From contig JANPYM010000021.1 of assembly GCA_025890175.1 (NCBI GenBank), positions 150,227-214,226 of the forward strand: a DNA stretch of 64,000 nt, written 5' to 3'. A program made the position numbers and the translations under genes. Position 1 is the first letter of the stretch, and every line of letters starts with the position of its first letter. Below the pieces are notes generated by a model. That model ran no database searches. It was given only the letters and a program-made list of their open reading frames with translations, and was not told the DNA's origin. The DNA comes from Ciborinia camelliae. Taxonomy: Eukaryota; Ascomycota; Leotiomycetes; Helotiales; Sclerotiniaceae. Below, piece after piece: positions 6,983 through 53,713 of the stretch.

Positions 6983-9131
6983 ATGGCTTCTTATAATTAT
7001 AGTACATCCAGTTCCGAAGTGGGAACTCCTCATACTCCCAGATCTTCTTCTCCTACTCATTCCGTCGCAAGTCGTTCATCATCTACCACTGTCAGCAAAA
7101 GAATTTCTTTATCAACTAGTCGTAGAAATACAGCGATGGATCCCATTGGTGGTATCGATATTGCTGCAATTGAAGCTGCCATGAAGCAGTCTTCTCTTGA
7201 TCATTTGAAAGGTTATAACCAGAAATCTTATGCAATTGTTGAACAGCCACAAGATACCGAATATATCTCCCAAGATTCTGCCAAAGGATATCAGGTTCTC
7301 CGTGAACCTGCATGGAATAAAGGTGATTTTTCTATACCTTTTGATGACATCTCATACTAACTTCCACAAGGTACTTCCTTTGCTCCTGAAGACAGAGTCA
7401 ACAAAAACCTTACTGGTCTCATCCCCCACGTCCTAGAGAGCCTGGAAACACAATGTATTCGAGCAATGCGAATGATCAACAGTCGTGGAACACCACTCGA
7501 CAAATACCTATATCTCTCAAATATCAAATCACAAAATACAGATCTTTTCTACCGTCTCCTAATCGATAATATCGCAACACTCATGCCACTCGTTTATACT
7601 CCAACCATTGGAGATGTCTGCCTTCAATATTCAACATTATATACAAGACCAGAAGCATTATATATTTCGATTAAGCAAAGAAAGTCGATGACAACCATTT
7701 TGAAGAATTGGCCATATCCAGACCCCTCCATTTGTGTCGTTACCGATGGATCACGTATTCTTGGCTTGGGAGATCTTGGTGTGAATGGAGTTGGCATTTC
7801 GGTTCGTGCTCAGTTGATTGTCTCATTTAATGGTCTTGGCTAACACATGACCACTCCAGATCGGCAAGTTGGCTCTATACACAGGTGCAGCTGGTATTCA
7901 TCCTGAAAAGACCTTGCCAATTGTACTAGATTGTGGTACTGCGAATGAAGATAACCTCCGCGATCCTTTGTACCTTGGTCTTCGTATGAAGAGACCTTCA
8001 CCAGAAGTTGAGCAAGAATTCATGGATGAATTCATGGCTGCTGTCAAGGAAGTTTACCCAGATATGCTTGTTCAATTCGAAGATTTCGAATCCGAGAAAG
8101 CTTTCAAATATTTGGATAGATATAAGGAAGAGAAGATGTTTAATGATGATATTCAAGGTACAGGTGCTGTTGTATTGGCTGGGTAAGCTTCGGATAAATT
8201 CACCTCCGCAACTTCACATCAACTAACACATCCTAGATACATCGGCGCAGTTAATTTGTCTGGGGTACCAATTGAGGATCAAAGATTAGTTTTCATGGGT
8301 GCCGGTTCAGCTGGAGTAGGTGTTGCGAAACAAGTTATGGAATATTATACTCGTCGTGGACTCTCGGAAAAAGAAGCTCGCGATAAATTCTGGCTCGTCG
8401 ATACCAAGGGACTCGTGACCAAGGATCGAGGAGACAAATTAGCGGACCATAAGAAAATCTTCGCCAGAACCGATAATAATGGTCATCAATTCACTACCTT
8501 GGAAGAAGTCATTGAATACGTTAAACCTACCGCTTTAATTGGTCTCACAGCAACTTTTGGCGTCTTCACCGAGTCGGTCATCAGAGCCCTCAAACAATCC
8601 GTCGATGCTGGTGGTTTGGGAAGAAGACCCATTCTCTTCCCTCTCAGCAATCCTCTCACCAAAGCCGAATGTACATTCGAACAAGCCATCACCTGGACCG
8701 AAGGAACCGTCATTTTCGCCTCCGGATCTCCCTTCTCCCCAGTAACCATCAAGCACTCCAGCTCGGATTCTCCCGATCCCGTCACCACAACCTATCATCC
8801 CAATCAAGGAAACAATGTTTACGTCTTCCCCGGACTGGGATTAGGAGCGATTTTGGCTAAAGCGACGAGGGTTACCGATGCGATGGTTTATCAGAGTGCA
8901 GAGGCCCTCAGTGGATGTTTAAATCGGGAGGAATTGGGCATGGGGTTGATCTATCCGAAGATTGAGAGGGTGAGGGATGCGAGTGTGGTGGTGGCGAGAG
9001 AGGTGATGAAGGCGGCGAGGAGGGAAGGGGTTAGTGCGTTGGAAGAGAAACTTTGGGAGGAGTGGGAGGAGTGGGGAGATGTTGCGTTGGATGGGTGGAT
9101 TCGAAAACAGGTTTATGATCCTAGGTGGTGA
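6983..9131 (+). CDS. NAD(P)-dependent malic enzyme
   Basis: Four exons: 6983-7322, 7371-7801, 7860-8182 and 8237-9131, giving 662 residues. The introns (48, 58 and 54 bp) have GT...AG ends and CTAAC branch sites; in-frame joins restore NKGTSF, GIS-IGK and LAG-YIG. Malic enzyme decarboxylates malate to pyruvate with reduction of NAD(P). Visible motifs are YTPTIGDVC (Tyr about 189), GSRILGLGDLGVNG, TANEDNLRDPLYLG, the metal-site FNDDIQGTG (about 350), the dinucleotide-binding FMGAGSAGVG (about 385) and FPLSNPL. Residues 1-55 are Ser/Thr-rich and basic, ahead of the conserved body, so mitochondrial targeting is possible but unproven. Length matches fungal enzymes (about 600-670). I cannot settle NAD versus NADP preference. 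The ATG is preceded by AAA, and the first 50 residues are less conserved in the family. Confidence 0.96.
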
Positions 9132-15405: not shown

Positions 15406-15524
15406 CCCTCTTCCTCCCTCTCCCCTCCCCTTCACCTCCCCTTCACCTCCCCCTCTTCCTCCCCCTCCCCTCAAATTACCTCTCCAACTACCCAATTACC
15501 TAAATTCCATAAAATCGTAAAATG

Positions 15525-16075
<551 letters not shown>

Positions 16076-16204
16076 ACAAACAAAAAATAAATAAAAAATA
16101 AAATCCGAATATCGTTCGTTCGTTCGTTCGTTCATTTCTCCAACCACCTCTCCCCCACCTCTCCCCCTCCCCTCCCCCTCCCCTTCCTCTCCCCCCTCCC
16201 ATTT

Positions 16205-16330
16205 TCTAAGTATCGTTCATTCATCCATCCATCCCATCCCATCCCATCCCCCCCTCTCTCTCTTCCTTCTCCCATCCCATCCCATCCCCCCATCCCATCC
16301 CATTCCATCCCATTCCATCCCATCCCAATA
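16205..16330. repeat. CCCAT-type pentamer/tetramer satellite tract
   Basis: Runs of CATC and CCCAT units with interspersed CTCT. It is pyrimidine-rich on the + strand and continues the compound microsatellite block that starts at 15525. Confidence 0.8.
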
Positions 16331-38241: not shown

Positions 38242-41200
38242 TCAAGACCCCCCCAAATCCAAATCCTTAAGTTTCCCACCCATCATCTTCAAATCCGAAT
38301 TCAACCCCCTATCCAAACCATCATCACCACTGAAACGTCCCACTCCAACGCCCTTTTCCCTACACGAAGATTGTGCTCCAAGGGCGACTTGGAGTTTTGG
38401 TTTTTCTTCCGAGAGGATAATTTTTTCGTCGTGTTTGATTTCTTTTTCTTTCTCCTGATCATCATGTTCATGTTCATGCTCATGTTCATGCTCATGCTCA
38501 TGCTCATGTTCATGCTCATGTTCATGCTCATGTTCATGCCCATATCCATGACCAAACTGATTGTGATCCTCAAACTTCATCGGATACCCCTTCACGCTTT
38601 CCGCATCAACACGAGCGGTCTGAAAAAACCGAGTATAATATTCCTTCTCCTCTTCATCATCAAAAGATTCATCATCCCCATCCCCATCCCCATACTCATG
38701 ATCCGATTCCAAATGTTTCACACGACCCAAAACACCCGACAATTCATCCTCATCATCCGCGAGATCATCATCAACAAGCCCCGGATAATTTCCGCTTTGA
38801 GGTCTCGAGGCCCTGAACCCATGTATCTCATCATCACTTTCCCATCCACCAATTGCTCTCTCGCTCAGAGGACTTGAGATCTTTTGAGCCACAGCCGCCA
38901 GAGAATTTCTTTCCCTTCTCGGCGAGAATTTACTCCAGAGAGGTGATGCGACACCCGGTAATCCAATATTCTCACACTTCAACGCCTTGGCCATATCCAA
39001 AACGGCAATCCACATGGGACATATGTATCCGACATTTTTGCGTTGACTCCAAGCGAGGACGCTACCTGCAACCCTGCCACTATTATTTCCAGGACCCGCG
39101 CTGAGATCGTCACCCCGTTCAAGGACCCATGCCCCACTATCACCAGGAACACCAATTTTACCTGCGACTTGCCAACTCATCGAAGGGGTTTTACGACCAT
39201 AGATTTTGAGAATCGACATTGAGGGAAGAATTCTTCCGGTTTGTGTACCACTTGTTCGAGCGGTACATTTGACTGGGAGATCTGGAAGATCTTTTAATGG
39301 GACCACGCCTGTGGGGTGTGTCGACAAGTGTATTGAGGAAATATCAGGGAGACGATCATCTTCGAATTGAAAAAGGCACCAATCAATTTCATGAGTAATA
39401 TTATCATGAGTTAATCGTCTGATTCCGGAACTTGTATAGACACTTCCAAGTAAAAATGAATCTAAATGTTCTTCATCTCTCGTCTCGGGATCGGGATAAA
39501 AATCTTCTTGATCAATGTCATCGATAGCTGGTTGGGTAATTGGATATTTGTAAACATTTGAGGGAGAGGCTAGAACGGGAGGAATATCTCCTGGTTCTAG
39601 ACTGGGAAATTCGGCATCGGAGTCATCTTCATCTTCTGAAGCATAGGGGGAGGAATCTGAATCGAATGATGAACCGGAAGATGAATAATCCGTGAAACTA
39701 TAATTGTATTCTTCATCGCCACTAGAGTAATAAGATGTATCCGAGTGAGTCAAATCTGGCATTTCGAGATATTGAGAACGAGCTGAGGATCGAAGGATTG
39801 GTTTTGTTGGTTGAACTGGCTCATCTTCTTCATCATCGGAAGGGTCATCTAACATATGATGAACAGACATCCCATAAGGTTTGTCGTCGATCATGATGAG
39901 CCCTCCGAATGATACCGGTGGAAGATGATGATCATTAATGTACGCTCCCATGCTAGCACCATTTTTCGGACGTACTTGATGTTCTTTATTCTTTGCTTCA
40001 ATTTCATCACCATGAGCCATACTTCTCTTCAATCCATCATTTCTTGCTCTCACAACCTTTCCACGACATACTTTTAATCCATATGTAGCTTTATCATAGA
40101 CGAGACTCTTCTTCAATATACTTCGGACTTTATTGACACTTGTACAGATGACGAGGATGGTAGGTTTTGTTTTTGTGGATGATTCGCCAACTGACTCGAG
40201 AGAGATCTCAACCGACTCGGGATATTTCTTGTAGAAACTTCGCAGGACGTGATTAACGTGGGGCATAATATTTGAATGCCAGTAGTTGATATGTTCTTGA
40301 CTAATCCGAATGGCGGGGTATGTCTTGAGCTTAGGTTTTGATTTGATAGGTTCGACAGCTGACACGAGAACCATTAGGTTTGAACTTTCATAAAGGGCAT
40401 CAACTTACATGAAGACTTCTTCTCTGACCATTCAACAGTAGCCTTTTGAGGGGACTTTTCACGTTTTGGTTTCTCTGCCCAATGAATTTCCGGTTCTTGT
40501 GGAGCGGTAAAATCAATCTTTTCATCCCTTCGATCACGATATCCCATGGTAGATGAAGACGGAATGTCAACCTTCAAAGGTGTAGGTACAAATGGCGATT
40601 CGTCATTTCTTTCACTATCATCATCGGAAACATCATCGAGTGAACAGCAAGTGCTGAGTGCTTTCGATACACGCCAGAAGACTTTTTGATGCATGACATC
40701 TGGTCTTGCTTTTCGTGAGAGTTCCCCTTCTGGGGCACATAAACATGCTTTCACTGCTTTGACATATATATTTCCACATCGAGATGCCAGATGGTTGAGA
40801 ACATCTGTAGGGTTCGATGGAACTTGAGATGCTCTTGGAAAAAGTTCAGCCAAAGAACTCCATAGACCAATCTCAAGAAGAATCATGGCAAGACTGTAAA
40901 GATCCAAACACTTGCTTTCTTGGGATAGATTGGTATATTTGGTAACCCTTGGATCAAGTTGATGCTTATACAATATATTGGTCCGATTCAAACTTGGTCC
41001 CGAATCTGTTGCGGTATCAGAAAACAAATCGTAGGAACCTAGATATGATTGCCGCATGTTAATTTGTGTCAAATCAAAAGTCCGCTGTGACGTAGGATGT
41101 TCAATGAAAAGAACATTGGAAGGAAGAAGATTGCCATGAACAATTCCTTTCGAGTGTAGATCAAACACAGCATTGGCTATGTTGTAGGCCAACCTGTACT

Positions 41201-42248
41201 TGACCTCCAAACTTGGTTCGAAGGCAGGACTTATCAGAAGTTCGGACAGTGAGTTTATCATGGGCATCTGCAAAGTAGGACTTTGAATGTCCATAGGTCC
41301 AAAGTTTGTCGGGAGGGCGAACAAGAGACAAAATCGTGAATGATCCGAGTCTTCATAATACCCAATGAGACGAAGTAATCCAACAAGTAATCGATCTGAA
41401 GAGTAATAAGCCTGCGAGAGCCCAGCAAAGAGTTTCTCGAACCGAGTCATCGATGGAGTGATTCCAGTGATGGAATAAATAGGATCGTAAGGGGCATATT
41501 CGACAAGAACGGGGATTGGATCAGGAGGTTGACCGATAGTTTTTCTCAAATCCGAAGAATTGACAGATCTTCTCATCAAGACTATCTGCCTCGATGAATT
41601 AGCCGATGTCGACCTCGATGTCCCACGCGTCGCAATGATTTGATTCCCCGTCCAGATAAGAGTTGCTGGATCGATTTGCTGTGGTGTTGACATTCTTGTA
41701 GATTCGAATTGTCTTTCCTCAAATCCCGAGGATGGTTCTTTGGAACGTGAAGCTTCGGAAGTCTGTAATGCGAGTCCACTTCTTGCCGACTGTCGTGTCT
41801 TTGATAGATCATAAAGAGTATCAATCGACATGGTTAAATCACGAATCAAATCCTCAAACCTCGATTTATCCCATTGAATTAAAGCACCCTTTTCCGACTT
41901 TTCCGACGGTCTCTCATCCGATGTCAACCTTTTCGAAGATTGCCATAATGGTTCAGCTTCGGCTAAAATCTCCTTGATTGTTGACATAACATTTCCGACG
42001 ATTTCAGATAATCCGGCCTTGGATACTGATTCATCGATATCAGGTGATTGTGAAGGATCCGACCATTCTAGCCCCCAAGATACCAAACGATTTTGTTGGA
42101 TGCGTAATTTTCGATGTAATGATTGAAGTCCATGATCTTCGACATTTCTCACTGGTTCTTTGATAAAATCATAAATATTCTTGGTATCGGTATAAATTTT
42201 AGTTAACCGTCTTTGAAATGGCAATGAAGATGTGAAGTATTGATCCAT
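38242..42248 (-). CDS. HeLo-like / pseudokinase / S1-like serine protease fusion
   Basis: Two exons, 42248-40409 and 40358-38242, give 1318 residues. The 50-bp intron (GTAAGT...GTGTCAG) joins SEKKSS to VEPIKSK in frame, so this is one gene. Residues 1-150 are helical and HeLo-like ([19 protein letters not shown]). Residues 245-535 are protein-kinase-like but lack key residues: the strand-3 Lys is replaced (VLVEYAPYD), HRD reads HGN (371-373), and there is no DFG; the Y.HQLDPR and [15 protein letters not shown] blocks are kept. Residues about 700-1065 resemble a chymotrypsin-fold protease: His 780/781 (SVHHM), Asp 939 (IDWCLF), Ser 1021 (GVPGDSGAW), with a 130-residue acidic insert between His and Asp. 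The tail is acidic, with a His-Glu run at 1221-1245. There is no signal peptide. By analogy with fungal HeLo proteins and MLKL it may act in regulated cell death or self/non-self sensing; that is inference. Confidence 0.85.
38464..38538 (-). repeat. in-frame His-Glu minisatellite inside the HeLo/protease gene
   Basis: A hexamer array (CATGCT/CATGTT units on the + strand) encodes about 12 His-Glu pairs (residues 1221-1245). Synonymous GAG/GAA variation inside the array suggests the peptide is kept while the DNA diverges. Its length is likely to vary between strains. Confidence 0.85.
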
Positions 42249-45775: not shown

Positions 45776-47510
45776 CTAGTCATCGGCTAATGAAAACAGG
45801 TCCGCAGAGCAGGGAAAATCACGAAGACTTCACAACCTCATATCGGGGACAATTACTAACACTTCCTTCCCATCACTCACTCACCCACAAGCCCGCATAA
45901 ACGCCCCCCACAGATCCACCCCCCCCCCCCAACCCCCGCTTCCTCCCCTATCGCCCTCACATATTCTCGATACTATATGTACTCGTGTCCTGCACGCGTC
46001 GTGGTTCGTCGCCTGCATATTGCGAGTGCGATATGTCGCCTCGTCTCGTCTACGGGCGCTGGCGTCACTACTATGATCTGATGTGTGGATGAGGGGATGT
46101 GTGGATGCATGATCATTTGCTGCAGATTTTTGGTGTTTTGGGGGGGGATGTACGGGTTTGTAGATGCAGATGCTAGATTCAGATTGTTGGGGCTGAAGTA
46201 TAAGAGCTGTTTGTTGTAGGGATGTTAGAGTTAGGGTGTTGGATGAAGGTCTTGATTGGGAGTTGGGGATGCTTGCCCTCCGTCTGAGATATTGGGAGCT
46301 AAGTTATGTGATGTGATGTGATGTGTCGTGACGTACCAGGAATCGCACCCGGGCTTCCTGCGGACGCGGATGAATTGTCCGAGGGCTTCGAGTGCGTGGT
46401 TCGTGTTATAGCCACTGTGGATGCATCGACGTTATGTTATGTTATGTTACTGAAAACTAGCAGAAGTGTAGGGTCGGACATAAGGTGAAGATTGCATGGG
46501 ATTGGATGGGAATGGATGGGAATGGATGGTATCTGAAGCCTCGATTTATAATGTCCAGCTTTCTCGCGTATGCTAGTGGTGTGCAGATGGATTGGTTAGT
46601 TGAGATCGGAGTTTTCGTATTTGGTGGGTTTTGGGGTTCTTTCTTTCTTTCTTTCTTTCGCCATGCTTTCGTTCTTTCTTTCAATAGAGAGATGGAAAAT
46701 GGGATTACAGGCTGAGGTACCATTTTGAAGCGCAGATGCAAATGAGAATCCACCTGGGTCATTCGAACATTGAGTTATACTGTCACCTAGGGTAGGGGTA
46801 TGATATATTAGTATGCCATCTCTCAATTTCTAAATCATAATGAAGGCACCCAACTCACCAAATAAAATGAATTGATCATAAGGCGCCTGAAAGGATTAAC
46901 ATCGAAGAATCATGTGTTCGGTACCTCCTTCGTTCCAGAGAGTACTCACCATTTCTCGAACTTGGTATGGGTGAATTTACCAATACATTTAATTTTTGTC
47001 AAGACCTAGTACTGAACTTGAAAATTCATACATAGAGAATCGGTATCGAATCATTTAGAGTCGATCAATGGATGGCAAATAGACGGATAACTTATAAATG
47101 CGTAGACGAGCGGCTGGTTGCCGAGAATATTACGATGGAGAGCATTTTATCCAATAGAAGTTATGATTGTCCCATTTGGGATATGTTCTTTTAGCCTGTA
47201 TCCATTCCATGGATAGGAACCTGAAATTCCACCAATCAGCTGGTGTGAGAACGGCCTGTGACTACCCCGCGTTGGTGATGGAGCTTGGCTGCTCGAGGAA
47301 GATGATGAGTCGATATTGACAGAATTTATTGGAAGAGAGGTTGAGAATTCGTGACGACAGTTGACAGTTGTGCAGTGATAGGTTTGGCTTGAGATAAATA
47401 AAAGAATTCCAGTTGAGGAGGAGAAAATTGACCGTTCGTCTGTCTGCACGAACAAACTACGAAAGCATCTCGAAACAAAACGCAAAATTCCCATACCGTG
47501 ACGGGCAAAA
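45776..47510. other. intergenic, upstream of GH1
   Basis: No gene is accepted. It includes C-runs near 45920, a TTTC tract near 46640 and several GGAATGGAT units near 46500. A tRNA B-box-like element on the minus strand near 46335-46355 lacks matching acceptor arms. The last 400 bp should contain the GH1 promoter and leader. Confidence 0.5.
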
Positions 47511-49025
47511 ATGCCGGTCCCCGAAACCCTTCAAGATCTCAAAGATGTTCTCCGTCCCGACTTTCACTTCGGATATGCGACCGCGGCTCCGCAGGTCGAA
47601 GGCGCCTGGAATATCGACGGCAAGGGCATTTCCATCTGGGACCAATTCGGTCATACACCAGGAAAGATCAAGGATGCCAGCACGTGCGATGATGCCGTGC
47701 AATCGTATTACCACACGCTCGAAGATGTCGCGCTCATGAAATCGTACGGCGTGACGGGATATCGATTTTCGCTCTCGTGGACCCGGATCATCCCGCTCGG
47801 GGGAAAAGATGACCCCGTTAATGAAAAGGGATTGAGGTATTACAGCGAGCTGGTGGATGAGTTGTTGAAAAATCAAATCACACCGTTCGTGACACTTTTT
47901 CATTGGGATATGCCGCAGGCGCTGGAGGATCGCTATGGCGGCATGTTGAACCAGCCGCGATATACGCCGGATTTTCTCCGTTATGCGCGAGTCTGTTTTG
48001 ACGCGCTGGGTGATCGCGTCAAGCATTGGATTACGTATAATGAACCGGGTGTCTATGCATTGGCGGGTTATGCAGCAGGTGTGCATGCGCCGGGACGCTC
48101 CTCAAATCGAGAGTTGAATGACGAGGGCGATTCGAGTACCGAGCCGTTTCGGGTCGCTCATGCGGAATTGCTGAGCCATGCGTATGTGGTGAAGATGTAT
48201 CGGGAAGAGTATCAGGAAAAACAGCTTGGGAAGATCATGATCTCGCTACATGGGAATTACTCGGAACCGTGGGATGAGCTTGATCCCTTGGATGTAGATG
48301 CTGCGGAGCGAGCGAGAGAATTTGAAATTGCTTGGTTTGCGGACCCGCTGTATAAGACGGGCGATTATCCCCCTTGCATGCGTGCGCAGCTTGGTGAGCG
48401 ACTCCCCTCGTTCACCGAGGAGGAATCGAAGTTGGTGCTGGGGAGTTCGGATTTCTATGCCATGAATAGTTACACGACGTTTTTTGTCAAACATCGAGAT
48501 GGTCCGCCGGATGTCAATGATCATTCGGGAAATATCGATAAGTGGGATACTAATTCTAAGGGCGTGATCCGAGGACCTGAGAGCGATACCTATTGGTTGA
48601 GGACGTGTCCGGGTGGATTCAGAAAACTGTTGAATTGGATTTGGGCTCGCTACGGAGTGCCGATTTATATCACCGAGAATGGAACCACGGCCAAAGGTGA
48701 ATCGGCACCGACTGATGAGGTGTTAAATGATAAATTTCGAATCGAGTTCTTTGAGGGATACATTGGTGCACTGGCAAGGGCGGTGAAGGAAGATGGAGTA
48801 GACATTAGATCTTACTTTGCCTGGACATTCACGGATAACTGGGGCAAGTTCTCCCAAAATCCTCAACCGGCTTGACTAACTGGCGATATAGAGTGGGCAG
48901 CGGGGTTCACTGACAGATTTGGCGTGACTTTCATAGATTTCGAGTCGAAGGAGAAGAAAAGATACCCCAAGAAGTCGGCAACAGTTATCAAGGAGCTCTT
49001 TACCCATATGATTAAAGGGAGATGA
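47511..49025 (+). CDS. GH1 beta-glucosidase, intracellular type
   Basis: Two exons, 47511-48843 and 48892-49025, 488 residues. The intron begins GCAAGT, not GT, and ends ATATAG with a GACTAAC branch site; splicing restores the family's DNWEWAAGFTDRFG block, so this is a GC-AG intron. GH1 enzymes release terminal glucose (or galactose) from beta-glycosides with retention. The acid/base Glu is E178 (TYNEP) and the nucleophile E389 (YITENGT). Other landmarks are YRFSLSWTRI (84-93) and FVTLFHWDMPQ (126-136). No signal peptide is visible, as in intracellular fungal enzymes of the Cel1A type that split imported cellobiose or similar. Only 55 bp separate its end from the convergent GH95 gene. The C-terminal RYPKKSA is as expected. 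A start at the first ATG agrees with the family length. Confidence 0.96.
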
Positions 49026-49080
49026 AGTGATGGAAGGGAATTCAAATCCAATGCAATTAAGGGTAGATAGAATTCAAACA

Positions 49081-51389
49081 TTAAACTATCCGGTGCTCTC
49101 CAATGCCGTCAATCACCACGACATGACCATCCAGAAGTACAACCTCTCTCTTACAATTATATCGTGAATGTACCACCACCTTCGTCAGGACACCTTCATT
49201 CCAAGCGAGATCAAGCTCGAACCCGCCCCTAGCCTTGACACCACTTAACTCTCCAGATTGCCACTCGTGAGGACATGCTGGTAAAACGTGAATGGAATAA
49301 GGGACATGCGACTGGACAAGCATCTCCACAATCCCGGCACATCCACCCAAGTTGCCATCAATCTGGAAGGGAGGATGTAAATTAAGTAAGTTGGGCAAAG
49401 TACTCTTCTTCAATAACGTAACTACATGCCCCAGAGAGCCCTCGGCATCGCCTAATCGGGCGTGAAGGCAGACAAGCCAGGCGCGACTCCATCCTGTGTG
49501 ACCCCCGCCATTCTCCTCTCGACGGCGGAGCGTCACCTTGGCCGCCGACATGAGATCCGGGGTGTTCCAGAGGTCCGATGACCCGGCTCGGGGGTAGAGA
49601 TCCAAGAGATGCGATACGTGACGGTGGCCTGGCTCGCTCTCTTCGAAATCTCGAAGCCATTCCTGGAGTTGTCCCCGAGAGCCAACTTTCATCGGCGGTA
49701 GTCTGGCTTGAGCTCTTTCTACCGAATCATACAGTTCATCATCGATTTGGAGAAATTCGACAGATGAGATGAATGCGGTGAAAAGGGCATCGATGATCTG
49801 TGTATCGATCGAAGAGCCTTCGCACAAAATTCCCTTCTGTCCCTTCTCATCTATGTATGAGTTTTCGGGGGATAGAGATGGACTCGTTATTAAATATTGG
49901 CCTGTAGAATCTTCGATGAGAAAATCTAGGATGAACTGAACACTCCCCCGTAGTATGGGAAACATCCTCTGGAGGACCTCTTTATCTTTATCATCATTTT
50001 CAAATTCATATCTCTGCCATATGTGGATACAGAGCCATGCGCCACTCATGGGCCACACTAAGATTCCCTTCATTAGAAAGATCATCAACATAGAAACCTG
50101 AGACGGAACTCACATGTGCCTGGCATCCAACGATCCTGAGGGTCTGTATCAGCCCAAATATCTGTACAGCTATGGGATGTCCAACCACGACATCCATACA
50201 TAACTCTGGCCGTTTTCTCTCCACGATGTGCCATCCGCTCAAGCAGATCAAACAGTGGATCCTCACACTCTTTCAAATTACACACATTGGCCGGCCAATA
50301 ATTCATCTGTGTGTTGATGTTGATCGTGTATTTTGAACCCCATGCAGGCTGGAACGATGGATTCCATAGCCCTTGCAAAGTCGCAGGAAGAGCTTTGTAT
50401 CCAGGGCGGCTGCAGGATATAAGCAGATACCGACCATAGTTAGCATACAAAGCAATCAAACCTGGGTCTGGAGTGATAAGCAATCTCTCGTTTGTTGGTA
50501 TATGGGCAGCATCGGGGAAGAGTTGAAGTTTGAATCGTCCGTATAACGAATCGTAATCCCGAGTATGTCTTAGGAAAAGATATTCATGCCCATACAAAGC
50601 TTTTCTCACTTGGCCCAGAGTGGTAGCTTCTACATCTGCATGACGAAATGTGGTTTGTGCAGAGATCACGATGATGGCTCTCGAGGAGTTCACAATCACA
50701 CAATTCCCCACGGTCGCAACTTTCCCATCGCCAGCTAAGTCCTGAACACTGACGACGCAACAAAATTTGTTACTATTTCGCCCCCCTGGTGTCCCATGCA
50801 TAACAATAGTTCCATCGTGTGCTTCGATAGAATCAACGAACTCATCAGTAGCGTATTCTCGGTCACTGTATCTAGATAATCGGACGGTGAACTCTGATTT
50901 TTCTGACGCCTCCAATTGAATGATCAATACATCGTCAGGGTAACTCGCAAAGGCCCTGCGTTTGTATCTAACTCCCAGACACTCATACTCCGTAGTCACA
51001 GTCGCTTCTGACAGATCTAGGCCCCTCCAATAATTTTTCACGTCTGATGAGTCGTGACCAAAGTCCAAGGTAAGGGTGCCGAGCGGTTCGTAGTGTCTTT
51101 GACTGTGAGGAGTGGCGAAGAACGCCTGCTCAACCAACTTTTCCGCCTCTGCATGATCGCCTATCCGGATAAAATGTCGCAGGCGGTCTAGGTTTTTGAA
51201 TGCGTCTTTAGGCGTGCGATCTTGGGGACCGCCATACCAAACCGAGTTCTCGTTCAATTGAAGCGTTTCCTTTGTCGTACCACCATAAACCATTGCACCC
51301 AATCTGCCATTGCCGATAGGCAAACTCTCCGACCATTCCTTCGCAGGTGACGTGTAATGCAGAGTTTCCTTTAGGTTAGAAGTAGCCAT
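49081..51389 (-). CDS. GH95 alpha-L-fucosidase family glycosidase
   Basis: Two exons, 51389-50114 and 50057-49081, 750 residues. The 56-bp intron (GTGAGT...CTTAG, TCTAAT branch) joins RWMPGT to LWPMSGAWL in frame. GH95 contains inverting 1,2-alpha-L-fucosidases and related L-galactosidases. Seen: the N-terminal SLPIGNGRLGAMVYGG beta-domain start, the NINTQMNYWPAN motif holding two catalytic-site Asn in the family, HRHVSHLLDLYP, and the C-terminal FQIDGNLGG carrying the family's catalytic Asp. The helix after GAWLC reads HIWQRY where many relatives have Glu or Asp at the Gln; I cannot say whether it matters. No signal peptide, so probably cytosolic, acting on imported oligosaccharides. It lies back-to-back with the sugar porter and tail-to-tail with GH1. 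Confidence 0.95.
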
Positions 51390-52069
51390 ATTGGTTGTTC
51401 AAATGGTAACGTCTAATGTCTAAAATTGAGACATTCTCAATTTATCAAGTTTCTCATGTTCGCAACAGACAAATGCGGCCACCCTTGGTGCATCCTCTTC
51501 CGCTAGAAATTGCCTCTTGTCCAATCGCTTTGGGTTTCATTTCAAGGATTGATTTATCCTGAAATCTTGTTGGCGTATAGACATTAGCCGAAATACAAAT
51601 ATCTTTGAAATCCATCAATAAAATTGTTTCGTTTAATGATTTTACCCAACTGTTGGAGTTGCGGAGAAGAGATAATGCGGGGAAAATCGAGGCAATATGG
51701 GATGGGAATCATGGGAGCGAGGGCCGCTTTCCCGCACGGGACGTGTGACATTGTGATATGATCTCCACGAATTCGAACGAATATCCTATATAACTTGTAT
51801 TAAATGCCCGGTGTTGAATCTAGTGTACGACAGGAAATATATAGGCAGTGTGCAACGTTGGTCTTTGCGAACTTCACTTTGCATCTCCCATCCTCCCCCC
51901 TCGTTTATCGAACAATATTCCGCAAAGGTTTCTTCATTGCAGCCAACTCCCGCTCCAAATATTTTATCGATAAACATCACACATATAATTCTGGATTGCC
52001 TTGATAAAACTCCATGGGCACGCGGGGCGTTCTTTTCACGTCGACGAGTTTGGCCAAAGAAACATAGCA
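51390..52069. promoter_or_regulatory. shared divergent promoter of GH95 and sugar porter
   Basis: 680 bp between the ATGs of GH95 (-) and the MFS porter (+). A TATATAA lies at 51787-51793, oriented for the porter. A GCGGGG at 51677-51682 fits the SYGGGG binding consensus of the carbon-catabolite repressor CreA/Cre1. A shared promoter would allow joint induction. The sites are seen in the sequence; their use is inferred. Confidence 0.45.
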
Positions 52070-53713
52070 ATGTCATCCAGATTTGATCACAAGTTGGAGC
52101 CGGTCGTCTCAGAGCGTCCGGGTGACTTTAAACATGCTGAAGAAAACGCGGAAGAAGTCACCATCGCTCGTCTTACCGAAGAAGATTTATTTCTTCTCTC
52201 ACAAGAATCGCTCAAGTTCAAATCGTGGACAACCTTTCGCCTTTTCTTGATGATGTTTGTTCAAGGCTGTGGTGCAGCTGGATATGGTATTGATTGGGCT
52301 GTAATTTCTGGAATTAACGCCTTCAAACCTTGGCATACATACTTCGGATTCGGCTCTAGCGGTGTGACTTATGGGACATTGAATGCGTTAATGACCATTG
52401 GAACTGTTTGTGGTGCCCCATTTATGGGATTTGCCGATATTATCGGACGTCGAGGCATCAACTTCGCAGGAAATTTTATTGTTCTATTCGCATCTCTGCT
52501 GCAAGCCTTTTCGGTTAACATCGGCATGTTCATGGCCGGTCGTTTCTTTCTAGGATTCGGTTCAGCACTCATGTCAAGTCCCCAGTACGTAGCAGAGGTA
52601 GCACCAACCCATCTCAGAGGTCGACTTGTCGGATTGTTTGGAGCTTGCTTCCAGGTCGGAAGTTTGTGCATGAACGCTGGATTGATAGGATTTGCCCATA
52701 TCGAATCGAACTGGTGCTGGAGAATTCCTTTGGCCCTAGAAGGGTTGTTTCCTTTGATCGTTTGCTTGTTAATCTACCCCTTGACTCCTGAGTCCCCACG
52801 TTATCTCATCATGAGAGGTCAAAAAGAAAAAGCGAAGAGGGTTATCGCCCAGATGCATACCACAGAAGGCAACAACGTGGATCATCCCTTGGTCATAAAT
52901 GTCGCAAACCAGATTGAAGAGTCCTTGCAAAATGAGAGACAAAGCAATCATTCTTACTGGGATTATCGTGTACTTTTCCATGGCAAATCAGCTCAATACA
53001 GAGTGCTCGTTCTCGTTTTATACTCAATCTTCCAACAGTGGAATGGTGGCGGTATTATCGGACAATATCTAGTGCCTGCCCTAGTCACAATTGGGATCAC
53101 TGGAACAACAGAGCAGTTGGGTATGAACTTCGGACTCAATGCGACATATCTTGTGTTCACGGTATGCGGTTCCTTAATCGTGGATAAATTTCGAAGAAGA
53201 ACTTTGATCTTCGCAGGATTAATTAGTTTCATCCTCCTCCAAACTGCTGCTACAATAACCTCCTGGCGATTTCAAATCACCAAAAGCAAAGTTGATGCCG
53301 GACTTGTTGTGACCTGGCTCTTCCTATTTCAAACCTGCTCCTCTTTGTTGATCGCAACCATGCATAACCTTTACCCCGTTGAAATCTTATCGCTTGGTAT
53401 GAGGGCGAAAGGTATGGGTTTGTATGCCTTTGTGCAGGGCGCGGCCGGAACCGTCCAGAATTATGGCATCTCGGTTGGCATTCAAAAAATCGGATACAAG
53501 ATTTGGGTTGTGTATGTTGGATACAACCTCATACAGTTGGTTCTCTCATATTTCGTATTCCCAGAAACTTCCGAGTTGACTTTGGAGGAAATCGATGTTG
53601 TATTTGAAACACCCGGCGTCAGACCGGTCAAGATGTCCCTGGATATTCAGAAGGCGAAGAGAGAAAAGGCAAGACTAGAGTCTGAAGGGATATCCAGCGG
53701 TGTTCAGTATTGA
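52070..53713 (+). CDS. MFS sugar porter (hexose/lactose permease-like)
   Basis: Intronless, 547 residues from the ATG at 52070 (MSSRFDHKLEP); the frame is open upstream but has no earlier ATG. About 12 hydrophobic helices. Sugar-porter signatures: GFADIIGRRG between helices 2 and 3, GRFFLGFG, PESPRYLIMRG after helix 6, a Q-rich helix 7 (IFQQWNGGGIIGQY), VDKFRRR between helices 8 and 9, and PETSELTLEEID after helix 12. It would be a proton symporter or facilitator in the plasma membrane. Resemblance is closest to fungal lactose-permease/hexose-transporter-like porters, but the substrate cannot be read from sequence. Its promoter is shared with GH95, so an oligosaccharide that GH95 and GH1 then degrade is a reasonable guess. 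Confidence 0.95.
   Translation: MSSRFDHKLEPVVSERPGDFKHAEENAEEVTIARLTEEDLFLLSQESLKFKSWTTFRLFLMMFVQGCGAAGYGIDWAVISGINAFKPWHTYFGFGSSGVTYGTLNALMTIGTVCGAPFMGFADIIGRRGINFAGNFIVLFASLLQAFSVNIGMFMAGRFFLGFGSALMSSPQYVAEVAPTHLRGRLVGLFGACFQVGSLCMNAGLIGFAHIESNWCWRIPLALEGLFPLIVCLLIYPLTPESPRYLIMRGQKEKAKRVIAQMHTTEGNNVDHPLVINVANQIEESLQNERQSNHSYWDYRVLFHGKSAQYRVLVLVLYSIFQQWNGGGIIGQYLVPALVTIGITGTTEQLGMNFGLNATYLVFTVCGSLIVDKFRRRTLIFAGLISFILLQTAATITSWRFQITKSKVDAGLVVTWLFLFQTCSSLLIATMHNLYPVEILSLGMRAKGMGLYAFVQGAAGTVQNYGISVGIQKIGYKIWVVYVGYNLIQLVLSYFVFPETSELTLEEIDVVFETPGVRPVKMSLDIQKAKREKARLESEGISSGVQY

Follow-up and report, generated by a model that had tools for sequence, protein, structure and literature searches.

The window, a stretch of 64,000 nucleotides from Ciborinia camelliae (GCA_025890175.1, contig JANPYM010000021.1, positions 150,227 to 214,226), carries on its minus strand a gene whose predicted product joins a HeLo-like helical region, a pseudokinase and a chymotrypsin-fold serine protease, in that order, in one polypeptide of 1318 amino acids (aa). 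With moderate confidence, we read this protein as a soluble intracellular signalling protease. Its C-terminal protease, similar in predicted fold to rice NARROW LEAF 1 (NAL1), would be the output, its HeLo-pseudokinase part would be the receiving side, and an acidic loop would limit access to the active site. With the kinase decayed and the protease apparently intact, the latter is likely the output and the HeLo-pseudokinase part likely its regulator. The features of the gene are collected in Table 1.

The gene and its relatives

The two exons join across a predicted 50-nucleotide (nt) intron into a single frame, as an earlier note on this DNA had proposed. A protein search at E <= 0.001 found 558 relatives, and 114 of the best 120, those listed, are 1100-1420 aa long. 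These 114 and the window protein make up the 115-member alignment to which our counts of members refer; the 6 of 121 sequences outside that length range were left out. The eight top-scoring relatives are Sclerotinia, Stromatinia, Botrytis and Monilinia proteins with 78-86% identity. The named relatives among the best 120 of 558 belong to what we take to be Leotiomycetes and Sordariomycetes, and many of the same 120 are metagenome proteins. Full-length gene models exist in named genomes, which supports the joining of the exons and disfavours two separate genes. Judged from sequence, the gene probably encodes one protein, not two. In P0029, whose cluster is named after a Rickettsiales metagenome-assembled genome, all parts also lie within one protein, which, given that name, was perhaps predicted without introns. 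Two full-length relatives lie on contigs with just 204 and 321 nt to spare, where a 50-nt intron still fits, so they are no proof of an intronless gene.

Retention of the intron would end the frame that starts at this Met after 624 residues, beyond the pseudokinase, leaving the HeLo-pseudokinase part alone. With the 456-aa protease piece as query, 187 relatives were found; the search admits proteins of 0.55-1.75 times the query length, a rule that excludes full-length proteins. The extrapolated starts of the open reading frames (ORFs) of the 120 listed fall mostly (84) at query residues 613-660, just past the intron site, and otherwise at 560-612 (19), before 560 (9) or at 661-760 (8). Because 84 of the 120 start right after the intron site, the position of the break looks common to many relatives.

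Median identity is 0.73 in the HeLo-like region, 0.59 in the kinase-like part and 0.51 on the Asp/Ser side of the protease. The genome that contains the window comprises 46.2 Mb on 27 contigs, and a search of it that scored the best candidates matched the protease at one place. No bacterial or viral relative was found in viral or genome contigs with the few short patterns used, which is not proof of absence.

Table 1. Features of the gene, in window coordinates
Feature	Position	Strand	Residues	Basis or remark
Whole gene	38242..42248	minus	1318 aa	exon 1 42248-40409 + exon 2 40358-38242 (stop included)
Basic polar N-terminus without hydrophobic helix	42189..42248	minus	1-20	hydropathy; predicted local distance difference test (pLDDT) < 50 at residues 1-37
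HeLo-like helical region	41775..42188	minus	21-158	PF14479 E 5e-7; 38/38 relatives scanned; median identity 0.73
Pseudokinase, DUF7580-like	40626..41684	minus	189-541	structure matches; sub-threshold profiles
HGN replacing HRD	41130..41138	minus	371-373	alignment of members
Predicted intron, 50 nt, GTAAGT...TCAG, within disordered linker	40359..40408	minus		exon joining, frame, relatives' ORF starts
Alpha-beta-beta-alpha-beta domain, positioned like the N-terminal domain of NAL1	40063..40302	minus	633-712	predicted structure; without sequence support
Chymotrypsin-fold serine protease domain (predicted)	38944..39966	minus	745-1085	conservation + predicted structure
H781, putative catalytic His (H780 likewise invariant)	39856..39858	minus	781	115/115
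Disordered acidic insert directly after catalytic His	39595..39840	minus	787-868	pLDDT, composition, members
D939, putative catalytic Asp, in HEIDWCLF	39382..39384	minus	939	115/115
S1021, putative catalytic Ser, in PGDSGAW	39136..39138	minus	1021	114/115, one gap
Variable acidic tail with (HE)n run	38245..38943	minus	1086-1318	median identity 0.05; 60 D/E, 28 K/R

The protease unit

The best structural match of the predicted protease model (pLDDT 79, predicted template modelling score (pTM) 0.77) is NAL1, its extra N-terminal domain included, and bacterial chymotrypsin-like enzymes rank behind it. The two-domain fold of the NAL1 family is present in the model, together with a conserved serine triad. 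Sequence support is confined to the Ser side, where the segment RTSGxQTG...GDSG aligns with RSSGxTTG...GDSG of NAL1 and the score of the motif was reached by 0 of 60 shuffles. Comparison with the NAL1 segment TNRHV led us to assign the catalytic His to H781, the second residue of its pair. Conservation and structure prediction together point to a chymotrypsin-like fold whose triad is complete, and the His, Asp and Ser that the earlier note had recognized are kept in the alignment but for one gap at S1021. We reject an ordinary trypsin, as no Pfam trypsin match was found in the window protein and the closest fold is that of NAL1. The start that had been proposed for the protease, at residue 690, is too late; the unit begins earlier, with a separate alpha/beta domain at about residues 633-712. 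A Trypsin_2 search of this genome found two other places, the window gene not among them. S8, CHAT, NACHT and NB-ARC domains were found neither in the window protein nor, at E <= 0.01, in 38 relatives.

The acidic insert beside the catalytic His had been put at 130 residues. Our data reduce its disordered part to 75-82 aa, inside the 157 residues that separate His and Asp. Residues 787-868 hold 23 D/E and 3 K/R, and residues 789-863 (model residues 175-249) have pLDDT below 50. The insert is conserved as a feature: across the 115 members the spacing between His and Asp is 139-165 residues (median 151), and the stretch equivalent to 787-868 measures 66-91 residues, of which Asp + Glu make up a median of 33%. 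This loop of about 80 residues probably restricts access to the active site. An analogy is thrombin, where the 60-loop insertion limits access to the active site. The run of HE units in the acidic tail, at 38464-38541, is peculiar to the window protein, the one member of 115 with at least 4 such units.

The HeLo-like region and the pseudokinase

The HeLo similarity of the N-terminal part is borne out by profile. PF14479 matches residues 24-112 (E 5e-7, 30.2 bits against a curated cut-off of 23.2) and is found at E <= 0.01 in all 38 scanned relatives of the 114 full-length ones. A match to the full domain was not reached, as the better of two stretches covers profile positions 18-104 of 205, whereas a paralogue in the same genome, L002, covers 4-205. 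L002 (G000:C26:1107118-1108806) is a 563-aa open frame with HeLo (E 2.7e-45) and DUF7580 and is 31% identical to the window protein over residues 229-508. It shares the order of HeLo then pseudokinase with the window protein, as do other fungal HeLo-DUF7580 pseudokinases, but differs in its full HeLo match, its hydrophobic N-terminus and its lack of a protease. The genome-wide HeLo and DUF7580 searches missed the window gene itself, so their counts are lower bounds. Another locus, L008 (G000:C2:1476470-1476823), is a HeLo-like stretch with seven internal stops, either a degenerate copy or one split by introns.

HET-S kills through an exposed N-terminal hydrophobic helix, according to excerpts of PMC4518210. 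The best 15-residue hydropathy within residues 1-30 of the window protein is -0.19, and the 115 members have a median of 0.02 and a maximum of 0.79. By this measure none of the 115 has a HET-S-type helix, compared with 2.24 for L002 and 0.97 for L006, a second HeLo protein with which the contrast is smaller. The comparison rests on these two N-termini, those of the HeLo loci L005, L007 and L008 not being readable with confidence. At least 14 residues precede the DTK motif in 95 of the 115 members, and the net charge of the stretch there is +2 to +5. We reject a HET-S-like killer, as the N-terminus is not hydrophobic.

The kinase fold of residues 189-541 is indicated by the structure matches of the predicted exon-1 model (pLDDT 68.6, pTM 0.57), which are filled by kinases, and by sub-threshold DUF7580 and Pkinase scores. 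The Asp of HRD is absent in 111 of the 115 members, and the position of the VAIK Lys holds Arg in 65, Ser in 34 and Lys in just 3. The loss of kinase catalysis that the earlier note had described is thus upheld, and what is left is a kinase fold without catalytic residues, as in MLKL-type pseudokinases. P0004, P0060, P0065 and P0106 (4/115) read HGD, with the HRD Asp present, and their DFG region still reads S-F/Y-D-L-F. Matches to prokaryotic defence kinases are short and limited to the kinase motif region, and we discarded them. With a profile match to HeLo, kinase structure matches, a predicted protease fold and full-length relatives, the union of the three parts in one protein, also put forward earlier, holds. 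A description of this three-part layout was not found in the titles and abstract starts of the papers that searches of the open-licence PMC library listed. The association of HeLo-type with kinase or pseudokinase domains in fungi is already published (excerpts of PMC12881547), and some fungal HELL domains likewise occur with kinase or pseudokinase domains (PMC12881547; PMC10197012).

Signalling protease or membrane killer

In the mechanism that we favour, the NAL1-like protease would cleave one or a few specific proteins, and the HeLo-like and pseudokinase modules would bind a partner or assemble. These N-terminal modules may keep the protease inactive or carry it to its substrate. The protease would then be active and the HeLo-like part would not form pores. 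The constraint on the HeLo-like part and the single protease match in the genome would fit a core function rather than a fast-evolving incompatibility gene. A soluble signalling protease under HeLo-pseudokinase control fits our data better than a pore-former.

Several results weigh against this reading. Compared by profile, the likeness to NAL1 is weak (P 0.0016, probability 16%), and sequence lends the NAL1_N-like domain no support, with 28 and 27 of 60 shuffles scoring equally high. No above-threshold match to Pfam NAL1, trypsin or S64 was obtained in the window protein or the members scanned, and a NAL1 protein used as query had no match in this genome. In about 20 of the 115 gene models the stretch on which N-terminal hydropathy was computed is missing, the models being shorter or without the DTK motif. 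Finally, exon 1 and exon 2 were folded apart, so the models leave the relative placement of the modules unset. PF25608 and PF25819, the Pfam families NAL1_N and Nal1_C, did not appear when 56 members were scanned for families at E <= 10; their profiles found no match in this genome, the PF25819 search finding none in control genomes either; and a DNA-pattern search for NAL1 relatives was empty. The window protein resembles NAL1 in its N-terminal alpha/beta domain, predicted protease fold and Ser-side motif, and differs in lacking a Pfam-level match, in the fused HeLo-pseudokinase part and in the long acidic insert.

A narrower form of the signalling reading, unlikely in its specifics, is a regulator of nutrient or developmental transcription, whose protease would, like NAL1 and Ssy5, remove a corepressor or activate a latent transcription factor. 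The maize orthologue NAL1a degrades a TOPLESS-like corepressor (excerpts of PMC12915138). Yeast Ssy5, a chymotrypsin-like protease that signals inside fungal cells, has a regulatory part at its N-terminus and is held by a prodomain (excerpts of PMC12958826). Both are precedents for an intracellular regulatory role. A common fold, however, does not show a common substrate, and sequence similarity to NAL1 and Ssy5 stays below threshold. The N-terminal modules of Ssy5 differ, and its peptidase family S64 (PF08192) matched 1 of 56 members, with E 0.23; an S64 search found none in this genome and none in control genomes either. One NAL1 protein, for its part, matches S64 below threshold (E 0.0086).

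The earlier note had likened the protein to MLKL, the executor of necroptosis. The layout of a helical domain followed by a pseudokinase and the HG-x motif in place of HRD (HGN here, HGK in MLKL) sustain this parallel; the partial HeLo match and the missing HET-S-type hydrophobic helix do not, and the executor part of it comes out weaker. MLKL retains the VAIK Lys, which is mostly replaced in this family, and the window protein carries an extra protease. MLKL was absent from the 44 PDB sequences compared and from the structural matches listed, which does not exclude a likeness. A quite improbable alternative is an MLKL-like executor with a built-in trigger, in which the protease would cut the linker and the freed HeLo-pseudokinase part would damage membranes. 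MLKL works without needing a long hydrophobic helix at its N-terminus, the two halves of the window protein are parted by a disordered linker (residues 542-622), and a retained intron would yield the N-terminal half alone. The linker is poorly conserved, though (median identity 0.22), with no conserved cut site evident; 0 of 115 members reach the hydropathy of the other two HeLo N-termini; and the strong conservation of the HeLo-like part would be unlike that of fast-evolving incompatibility genes.

We also doubt that the protein is an immune or allorecognition sensor protease cleaving a separate killer such as a gasdermin, in the manner of the HET-Q2-like and CHAT proteases, which are likewise built into multidomain fungal sensors. 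In excerpts of PMC12881547 and PMC10197012, more than 80% of fungal gasdermin genes cluster with protease genes, and the linked proteases can have a kinase-like domain fused to their own. Those proteases are mainly S8 or CHAT, the very ones not found here, and no gasdermin family match was found in the 9 window ORFs scanned, out of 29 of at least 150 aa, where intron-split genes could escape. The single protease match in the genome and the strong conservation look more like a core gene. Among fungal NLR domains, excerpts list an S8 peptidase (PMC9815663, PMC4986451) and CHAT (PMC9815663); the excerpt of PMC12258605 names no protease effector, and none with a chymotrypsin fold appears in the excerpts of these three papers. 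The idea that the protease domain is a non-catalytic binding scaffold, suggested by its fusion to a pseudoenzyme, is very improbable, as the three triad residues and PGDSGAW are conserved, unlike the decayed kinase motifs.

Beyond the signalling protease itself, a wider view can be held only tentatively. The family would be a signalling machine conserved widely among fungi, whose MLKL-type HeLo-pseudokinase module would have started as a membrane killer and would now control a NAL1-like protease, with sensing, switching and proteolytic output in one polypeptide. HeLo domains are described as pore-formers in the literature excerpts at hand. A conserved family whose HeLo domain lacks a membrane helix and is fused to a pseudokinase and to a protease kept intact would show the same parts put to a different use. 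It would place a NAL1-like protease fold in fungi and offer a directly testable connection of necroptosis-type modules with signalling by proteolysis.

Other features of the window

Malic enzyme domains lie at 7361-9128, about 29 kb from the gene. The Chlorociboria relative P0023 has malic enzyme domains in the same record, perhaps because the gene model fused neighbouring genes. Scans of the window for Rfam families and tRNAs gave no hits. Genes for GH1, GH95 and a sugar transporter adjoin each other at 47502-53710, and a simple repeat at 15474-16216 reads (LFIY)n in three minus-strand frames.
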